In this document: in pieces, positions 39,797-41,646 of the stretch
Layout of the letters: each line of letters begins with the position of its first letter
Position numbering within the stretch: position 1 is the first letter of the stretch
Assembly (NCBI GenBank): GCA_027311865.1
Contig: DAICYC010000003.1
Coordinates: 17,973-60,903, forward strand
Length of the DNA stretch: 42,931 nucleotides
Reading direction: 5' to 3'
Origin: Candidatus Saccharimonadota bacterium
GTDB taxonomy: Bacteria; Patescibacteriota; Saccharimonadia; Saccharimonadales; Saccharimonadaceae
Program-made: the position numbers and the translations under genes
The notes under the pieces: generated by a model
Databases searched by the model: none
What the model was told of the DNA's origin: nothing
What the model saw: the letters and a program-made list of their open reading frames with translations, nothing else

Positions 39797-40648
39797 CTAA
39801 ATCTCGTCTATAGCATGCCATAGTCCGCTGGAGTCGCGCTGAATGAGCTTATCTAGCTCCAGCTTAGTTAGTTGGGACAGCAATTGGGATATCGAGAGAT
39901 GGCAGCTCGATGATAAGTCGTCGGCTGATTGAGGTCCATGCTGTTTGAGACTATTTATTACTGGATTGTCGACGATGGCGATCGATTGACGTCGTGGGTT
40001 GATACCTAATATATATAAGATGTCATTGGGGTGCGAGACTGGATGCGCACCTTGGCTAATCAGCTGGTTGGGACCGACACTAGTCGGGCTGTCGATGGGG
40101 CCTGGTATCGCAGCTACCTCTTTACCATAGTCAAGGGCATAGCGAACGGTGGCGTGAGTGCCGCTGCGCTGTTCAGCCTCGACCACTAGTACTAGATCAG
40201 CCAAGCCGGCCAGCCATTGATTACGTTCAAGGAAGCGGTATTTATGAACAGTGGTTCCGGGTGGGTATGGGCTGAGCAAGAAGCCACCACTGGCTAGAAT
40301 TTTGTCGGCCAGATTAGTATGAGCTGATGGGTAGATGATGTCGAGACCGTGGGCCAAGACGGCGCCGCTCACTCCCCCGCCCTGGACAGCACCGCGGTGA
40401 GCCGCCGCATCGATGCCGTAGGCCAGGCCGCTGATAACAATTATGTTGTGTCGGCTCAGAGCTTCAGCAAAATTACAGGCAACCCGTGTACCATAGATCG
40501 TGGGCTTTCGAGTCCCAATGATTGCCACCACCGGCCTGCGCTCGGTCGGCAGAGCACCTATCGTATAAACTATTTTAGTTAGTTCTGCAACAGAGCATAA
40601 ACTCTTTAAAAACGGGCTGGTATCTGGTGTAATAGTATTGATTTTCAT
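39797..40648 (-). CDS. dprA: DNA-processing protein DprA
   Basis: DprA shields incoming single-stranded DNA and loads RecA during transformation. From ATG 40648 the protein has 283 aa: Rossmann core VVAIIGTRKPTIYG, VISGLAYGIDAAAHRGA, EAEQRSGTHATVRYALDYG and GPIDSPTSVGPNQLI, then a C-terminal winged helix (about 228-283). The N-terminal SAM domain of larger DprA proteins is missing. The longer reading starting at 40684 begins at a TTG that is part of a -35 box, so I reject it. Confidence 0.93.
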   Translation of the reverse strand: MKINTITPDTSPFLKSLCSVAELTKIVYTIGALPTERRPVVAIIGTRKPTIYGTRVACNFAEALSRHNIIVISGLAYGIDAAAHRGAVQGGGVSGAVLAHGLDIIYPSAHTNLADKILASGGFLLSPYPPGTTVHKYRFLERNQWLAGLADLVLVVEAEQRSGTHATVRYALDYGKEVAAIPGPIDSPTSVGPNQLISQGAHPVSHPNDILYILGINPRRQSIAIVDNPVINSLKQHGPQSADDLSSSCHLSISQLLSQLTKLELDKLIQRDSSGLWHAIDEI

Positions 40649-40669
40649 CGTAAATTGTTTCAATAAGTA

Positions 40670-40698
40670 TTGACATAATGTCAAATACGTGCTAATAT
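40670..40698 (+). promoter_or_regulatory. Strong promoter of the ncRNA candidate
   Basis: TTGACA (40670-40675), a 17-bp spacer ending TGC, TAATAT (40693-40698). The -35 lies in the palindrome TTGACATAATGTCAA (40670-40684), whose other arm gives a minus-strand TTGACA facing dprA, so the promoter is probably bidirectional. Nothing protein-coding lies downstream on the plus strand before the terminator. Confidence 0.75.
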
Positions 40699-40704
40699 GC
40701 TATG

Positions 40705-41055
40705 TGATTGGTTAATCTGCGAGGTTAACCAAGCACCTTATACCCCCTATATCTAACTTATGTTAGGGTACATACACGGCGCTTTTGAAGTAACTACCCT
40801 CCACTTTTCTAGCTTCTCCTTAGGGAGTGACAGCCTTGTATGTATACTAATCCCTTTAACGCCCACATTTCGGTGTGGGAGCCCGTTTTAAGTAATTTCA
40901 GTTGACGACTATCCAGTAGTGACCGTCCTCGGACGATCAGGCGCGCACCAATATTTTTCTTCGGTTCGCGATCGCTTTGTCGAAATTACCTGGGTGGGTT
41001 AAAGGGTAAAATGCGCTCATAGTGATGCCCACCCTTACTATGAGCGCTTTTTATT
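40705..41055 (+). ncRNA. Candidate 350-nt structured RNA, family unknown
   Basis: Runs from a near-consensus promoter to a strong terminator with no ORF. Helices read by eye: TTGGTTAA/TTAACCAA (40708-40715/40725-40732); CTAAC/GTTAG (40753-40766); ACATACA-c-GGC/GCC-t-TGTATGT (40770-40780/40833-40843) enclosing CTCC/GGAG (40816-40827); AACG and CCCACA with TGTGGG and CGTT (40858-40867/40874-40887) capped by TTTCGG; GTAATTTC/GAAATTAC (40892-40899/40982-40989) enclosing ACTA/TAGT (40908-40920) and CGTC/GACG (40924-40935). GGGTGGG (40992-40998) can pair with CCCACCC (41028-41034) in the terminator loop. I looked for RNase P, tmRNA, SRP and 6S signatures and found none. Confidence 0.6.
41013..41052 (+). 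terminator. Rho-independent terminator
   Basis: GCGCTCATAGT (41013-41023) pairs with ACTATGAGCGC (41037-41047), 11 perfect bp, followed by TTTTTATTT. The minus-strand side has only ATTTTA, so it serves the plus-strand RNA best but may also stop the pth transcript. Confidence 0.88.
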
Positions 41056-41064
41056 TGATTCTTA

Positions 41065-41646
41065 TTAACTCTGTTTAGATGTCTTGGTGACGCTGTCGGC
41101 CTGAAAGTGTCCGTCGATGAATTTATCAATCAATTCATTAATATGCGGCAGTATTGTAGTGTCTAATAATTGCTGATCGGATTTTGAAAATCGACCCAAG
41201 ACAAAATCGGCATCTGACTGTTGTATCGGCCGATTATCATTGGCGATACCAACGCGAATTCGAGCATATTTGTCGCCAAGATGACTGTTGAGGCTTTTAA
41301 TGCCGTTGTTGCCGGCGTCGCTTCCCTTGATGCGCGTTCGGATGACACCAAAGTCGAGCGCTAGATCGTCATGGACAACCAAGAAGTCGGTTTGCAGATT
41401 GACTTTATAAAAATCGCATAAGCTTCGGGCGCTGCGACCAGTGTCGTTGTAATAGGTTTGAGGTATGACAAAGAGTACTCGTTGGTCTCCCCTTTTGCCT
41501 TCGGCGATTAGGGCGTTGAAGCGGGCTTGTTTTTTCCAGATTAACCCTTTCTCACGACCGAAGCTGGTTACGGCTTGGGCTCCAACATTATGGCGAGTTT
41601 GATCATAGTCTGGCGATGGATTAGCTTGGGCGAAGATAATCTTCAT
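41065..41646 (-). CDS. pth: Peptidyl-tRNA hydrolase
   Basis: Frees tRNA from peptidyl-tRNA that drops off the ribosome. 193 aa with NPSPDYDQTRHNVGAQAV (catalytic His, substrate Asn), PQTYYNDTGRSA, VVHDDLALDFGVIR (catalytic Asp) and GSDAGNNGIKS. The usual GLGNPG start is QANPSP and PxTYMNxSG is QTYYNDTG, mild deviations. It begins 5 bp after der, so they are one operon. Confidence 0.93.
   Translation of the reverse strand: MKIIFAQANPSPDYDQTRHNVGAQAVTSFGREKGLIWKKQARFNALIAEGKRGDQRVLFVIPQTYYNDTGRSARSLCDFYKVNLQTDFLVVHDDLALDFGVIRTRIKGSDAGNNGIKSLNSHLGDKYARIRVGIANDNRPIQQSDADFVLGRFSKSDQQLLDTTILPHINELIDKFIDGHFQADSVTKTSKQS

Follow-up and report, generated by a model that had tools for sequence, protein, structure and literature searches.

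A structured RNA encoded between dprA and pth across the Saccharibacteria, and a hairpin loop that it shares with phages

Saccharibacteria are tiny parasitic bacteria, and the genomes of Patescibacteria are themselves tiny, with no room for idle genes. In a stretch of 42,931 nucleotides from one such organism (contig DAICYC010000003.1 of assembly GCA_027311865.1; hereafter the window), an initial annotation proposed that the interval between dprA and pth encodes a structured RNA of about 350 nt with its own promoter and terminator. What kind of RNA is this, how widely is it kept, and what might it do? We conclude that it is almost certainly a real and previously undescribed structured RNA; what is new is the RNA family together with a loop that it has in common with phages. 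The locus and its parts are as follows.

39797..40684, minus strand: dprA, divergent neighbour (Pfam PF02481)
40670..40698, plus strand: promoter of sigma70 type with extended -10 (TTGACA-17-TGCTAATAT), pattern found in relatives
40705..41052, plus strand: RNA gene, about 347 nt, with order-wide homologs and no Rfam family
40706..40732, plus strand: 5' hairpin P1, 5 modelled pairs, all changed on both sides
40733..40757, plus strand: motif A, GCACCUUAUACCCCCUAU...UCUAAC, nearly invariant and mostly unpaired, from invariant columns
40762..40851, plus strand: stem P2 (GUUAG...CUAAU), enclosing a covarying inner helix and hairpin B
40788..40806, plus strand: hairpin B, conserved loop ...CUACCCUCC, stem covarying in 111 hosts
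40852..40860, plus strand: 5' strand of the long-range helix, CCCUUUAAC
40891..40990, plus strand: variable middle domain, closed by AGUAAUUUC/GAAAUUACC
40998..41006, plus strand: 3' strand of the long-range helix, GUUAAAGGG
41013..41052, plus strand: hairpin C, the terminator, with a variable stem, the invariant loop UGCCCACCC (41026-41034) and T5
41065..41646, minus strand: pth, convergent neighbour (Pfam PF01195)

The promoter was found where it had been predicted, as TTGACA-17-TGC-TAATAT: TTGACA occupies 40670-40675 and is followed by a 17-nt spacer and TGC-TAATAT, with TAATAT starting at 40693 and its last base at 40698. The pattern TTGAY-N14..16-TGnTAnnnT was present in 114 of 115 non-redundant relatives and in 0 of 115 shuffles. 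Promoter and terminator are both conserved across relatives, which upholds the proposal of a structured RNA with a putative transcription unit of its own; the 5' end of the gene was placed from the position of the -10 box. A single sizeable plus-strand ORF lies within the gene (43 aa, 40760-40891). It is not conserved, and few relatives have any frame open across the core, in keeping with the earlier statement that the unit has no ORF. The longest dprA ORF, which uses a TTG start, overlaps the RNA promoter; the true dprA start is probably internal, at an ATG near 40648.

The predicted fold is more stable than expected from composition, with a folding energy of -118.5 kcal/mol as compared to -91.5 +/- 4.9 kcal/mol for shuffles (z -5.5). 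Two covariance models were used, R1 for the 5' domain and R2 for the 3' domain. In the R1 alignment, which comprises 80 distinct relatives, pairing is kept in 95.9% of structure cells versus 77.5 +/- 0.6% after shuffling, a figure that is biased towards the model to which the alignment was fitted, with independent counts in agreement. The covariation check that had been called for gave a very strong result: 307 cells are changed on both sides in these relatives, versus 70 +/- 13 when shuffled. Sliding the partners by 1-3 columns left pairing at 26-40%. Pairing of the long-range helix CCCUUUAAC/GUUAAAGGG is kept in 114 of 114 relatives. Its positions 1, 7 and 8 show 2, 12 and 8 double changes, respectively, and the last two of these positions were left free by the search expressions. 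This strongest of the long-range helices (40852-40860 with 40998-41006) had been overlooked by the initial annotation. The middle domain is reduced in some relatives to one short hairpin. At the 3' end, the T5 run described earlier is present, whereas the 11-bp terminator stem is in fact one of 13 bp (41013-41025 with 41035-41047) closing a 9-nt loop in the window. Among 108 hosts, 11 positions of this stem pair at 94-100%, most of them with many double changes.

The gene is a near-constant feature of its order. A DNA search returned strong homologs in 16 of 16 genomes of the same genus, as well as in numerous further genera of the order. With strict filters, R1 matched 160 of the 295 genomes of the class, all inside the order Saccharibacteria and at one copy per genome with few exceptions, and it had no match outside the order in a phylum-wide sample. 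R2 matched 353 of 393 genomes of the order, representing 143 of 156 genera; the E-values of both models are rough. In most of the approximately 160 contexts with enough flank, a set that includes redundant loci, the gene is preceded by dprA and followed by pth. Several genomes of one genus, g90 (G171, G266, G722, G723, G747), have two matches to the hairpin C model, the second of which is perhaps another copy of the RNA or a prophage.

No known family accounts for this RNA. Neither the window nor 19 diverse homologous loci matched any of the 4227 families of Rfam 15 at the gathering threshold, and lenient scans (E<=10) of the window and relatives gave chance-level matches only; a hit to a known family had been named in advance as the outcome that would overturn the proposal. 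The covariance models for RNase P RNA (RF00010) and tmRNA (RF00023) had no match at the RNA locus, and the genuine genes map to another contig of the same genome, at G000:C3:1191-1554 (254 bits) and G000:C3:4301-4680, respectively, which bears out the earlier reading that the RNA is neither of these. The 6S RNA model (RF00013) had no match anywhere in the genome, bacterial SRP RNA (RF00169) had none at the locus or in the genome, and 6C RNA (RF01066) was absent from the Rfam matches at gathering or at E<=10. No paper on the dprA-pth RNA was found in the literature searched. SRP RNA was dropped as a candidate identity since Ffh is missing too, and an SRP RNA would thus have no binding partner. 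The Ffh M domain was detected in 0 of 31 Saccharibacteria relatives and in 14 of 14 controls, no full-length ffh was present in 26 genomes, and SRP RNA was found in 0 of 41. Judged by sequence, these relatives appear to have no signal recognition particle.

The RNA has three C-rich segments, A (ACCUUAUACCCCCUAU), B (CUACCCUCC) and C (UGCCCACCC), which are similar but not identical to each other and nearly invariant among relatives. Two of them are hairpin loops on covarying stems. Loop C, the string that defined the hairpin C search, is kept across clades. Invariant loops on covarying stems are typical of binding sites, and all three segments are putative sites of this kind. Loop B also resembles the 16S 3' tail UUACCUCC, taken from genome G012; at G012:C1 near 170400 (L358), this tail reads GGAUUACCUCCUUUCU, with U in place of the usual bacterial C (GGAUCACCUCC). 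No complementarity of at least 8 nt was found between the loops and the rRNA operon of one complete relative, and a search of the host for further occurrences of any of the three loops yielded none that was convincing. GUUAG at 40762-40766 has two nearly invariant partners, UCUAAC upstream and CUAAY downstream (40847-40851), and UCUAAC (40752-40757) can pair locally with GUUAGG at 40762-40767. A conformational switch based on this alternative pairing is possible.

The distribution of loop C was unexpected. Hairpin C of the hosts has two flavours, GA..UU and GG..CC, with covarying closing pairs. Of 41 host genomes, 24 contain the loop string GATGCCCACCCTT exactly once, and the remaining 17 are without this exact flavour. 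Both host flavours were also found in phages: searches of IMG/VR, which required exact loops, returned 53 and 48 contigs for the two flavours versus 5 for a reversed motif of the same composition. About 80 IMG/VR viral contigs carry loop C on different stems, and these copies are on the coding strand. Stems of at least 3 bp flank 43 of 53 and 38 of 49 viral loop-C hits, as compared to 11% with swapped flanks and none of the reversed-motif controls. With the threshold raised to at least 4 bp, 76 phage hairpins comprising 69 distinct sequences were obtained. In 110 of 137 cases, an ORF flanking one of these 76 hairpins shares its strand (110 to 27; p about 2e-13 on an assumption of independence that related phages violate). 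Given this bias, we take the element to be orientation-dependent and to act as RNA.

In most phages examined, PHROG annotation shows the hairpin adjoining genes for portal, protease, major head, tail, collar or terminase proteins, and in one other phage an exonuclease gene; several copies lie inside capsid operons. In a recurrent layout, hairpin C starts right at the stop codon of a gene about 80 codons long, or a few bases after it, and is followed by a second hairpin, CCAGC..GCUGG, a Shine-Dalgarno sequence and the next gene. This layout is found with flavour 1 (L247) and with flavour 2 (L309, L318, L327 and others). The CCAGC..GCUGG hairpin directly follows hairpin C, ahead of a late-gene Shine-Dalgarno sequence, at L309, L318, L327, L330 and similar viral loci. 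Other contigs (L223, L227, L251, L269) carry units of promoter, hairpin and U-run with predicted RNAs of about 40 nt, and in L221, L349 and the phage-like region L112, motif A is combined with a hairpin B closed by a terminator stem. L112 is a phage-like stretch within a record titled Antrihabitans sp. YC2-6 (Actinobacteria; a 1.7 Mb contig), and at L112:4208-4855 the A+B element and a hairpin C lie about 470 nt apart on the same strand. The viral contig L339 has a host-like 3' domain, which could be host sequence. In most phages, loop C occurs alone in the stretch that was read. Known phage records gave no match. The motif A pattern in Clostridium, Thermus and other unrelated genomes was set aside, as it occurs there at the number expected by chance and fails the model; L347 and L348, which have motif B without motif A, likewise look like chance. 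The shared loop leads us to infer that the viral contigs infect Saccharibacteria.

How, then, might the RNA act? In most contexts dprA diverges from the RNA gene and pth converges on it, so that no gene is left for the RNA to control in cis, and the lack of a downstream target, the consensus promoter and the single conserved copy make action in trans the natural and most likely reading. We regard it as about evenly balanced whether the RNA is a constitutive trans-acting molecule with loops for a common host partner, which phages would exploit as well. Under this reading, the RNA would be transcribed constitutively across the order, and the long-range helix, with two domains that look coaxial, would hold up the C-rich sites A, B and C. 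These sites would bind one host partner, most likely a protein that prefers C-rich single strands, and the RNA would titrate or regulate that partner, as CsrB does CsrA or 6S RNA does RNA polymerase. Viruses would present loop C in late (capsid) transcripts, set on their own stems, would sometimes have the A+B part in the form of a small element that ends in a terminator, and would by these copies use or divert the same host partner. A single partner is an assumption, because the three sites differ from each other, and the fit to titration of a multi-site partner is poor because most phages carry only loop C.

Several known systems share parts of this picture. CsrB/CsrC and 6S RNA are protein-titrating regulatory RNAs. 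The proposed role resembles theirs, as that of a constitutive, highly structured, trans-acting RNA with recurrent exposed motifs; however, CsrB/CsrC present GGA motifs rather than C-rich loops and have no sequence relation to this RNA, which likewise has neither the fold of 6S RNA nor a sequence relation to it. 6C RNA of Actinobacteria (RF01066) also has hairpins with C-rich loops, but is much smaller, differs in sequence and lacks a long-range helix, and no Rfam match to it was obtained here. The large conserved bacterial RNAs raiA, OLE, ROOL and GOLLD, which are of uncertain function, are comparable as large, intricate, lineage-wide noncoding RNAs, yet none is matched in Rfam. Some phage RNAs, such as RNA anti-CRISPRs, mimic host RNAs. 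In the phages here, too, a structural unit known from a host RNA stands alone as a copy, but that unit is a hairpin loop, it sits both in capsid operons and in units of promoter, hairpin and U-run, and no defence system is implicated.

Other explanations must be weighed against these observations. The RNAs of the 6C and UCCC-motif type in other bacteria probably pair with ribosome-binding sites rich in G, and the C-rich loops A and B might similarly be anti-Shine-Dalgarno seeds of a base-pairing small RNA. The likeness of loop B to the 16S tail fits such a role, as do 8-mers complementary to B in 16 of 689 initiation regions versus 1 in the control. The excess, however, comes mostly from GGAGG alone (reversed B gives 9 versus 3, and the 16S tail 24 versus 1), loop C shows no excess in initiation regions (8 versus 10 in the control), and the copying of loop C by phages is left unexplained; we judge this idea unlikely. 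A role for loop C within the RNA itself is less probable still. The window does contain GGGTGGG (40992-40998), a 7-mer perfectly complementary to CCCACCC (41028-41034), and a GGGUGGG:CCCACCC pseudoknot or anti-terminator could govern the RNA's own 3' end. The match noted in the initial annotation is thus present, but it is not a conserved pairing: GGGUGGG drifts among relatives (GGGUGUG, GGGUGCG, GGUGUGGG, GGGAUGCG) and the complementarity is lost in many of them, while CCCACCC is invariant, and phage hairpins retain loop C with no GGGUGGG nearby.

The absence of 6S and SRP RNA from the genome, and a gene as universal in the order as a housekeeping RNA is expected to be, would suit a disguised 6S RNA, SRP RNA, RNase P RNA or tmRNA. 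We consider this improbable, given that RNase P RNA and tmRNA are located elsewhere, the Ffh M domain is missing in 31 of 31 relatives, lenient Rfam scans give nothing relevant, and the fold is multi-domain with a long-range helix rather than a 6S-type single long hairpin with a central bubble. A 6S-like function may nevertheless be served through another fold. It is very unlikely that the phage loops are attP sites for integration at the gene's 3' end, in the way that phages use tRNA and tmRNA genes. Seven phage hairpin sequences do equal a host hairpin core, yet most phage stems are unlike host stems, the annotated hairpins lie among portal, scaffold, capsid, tail, terminase or exonuclease genes, the strand bias of flanking ORFs is strong, and the loop string, where present (24 of 41 host genomes), has one copy per genome. 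Least credible of all is a cis-acting leader or riboswitch, for although the promoter and terminator are strong, the downstream pth gene is convergent across the order.

The reading of a trans-acting RNA with a common host partner suggests an RNA-based control system common to bacteria and phages. A more specific form, which we hold as tentative and doubtful, is an order-specific, essential RNA-protein regulation through C-rich loops, with phages independently carrying the loop as a recruitment tag on capsid mRNA and as tiny decoy RNAs, its flavour matched to the host clade. If true, this would be a host-phage RNA code without a described counterpart.

The locus adds to these bacteria a new RNA family, one in which covariation is unusually good. 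With Southlakia/Nanosynbacter (PMC10633639) there is a relative that is genetically tractable, which makes the function of the RNA directly testable. Despite their tiny genomes, nearly all members of the order keep the RNA at the same place. Reuse of the loop by diverse viral contigs suggests that a real binding partner exists and gives a handle with which to find it, and the loop may serve as a sequence mark that assigns viral contigs to Saccharibacteria hosts.
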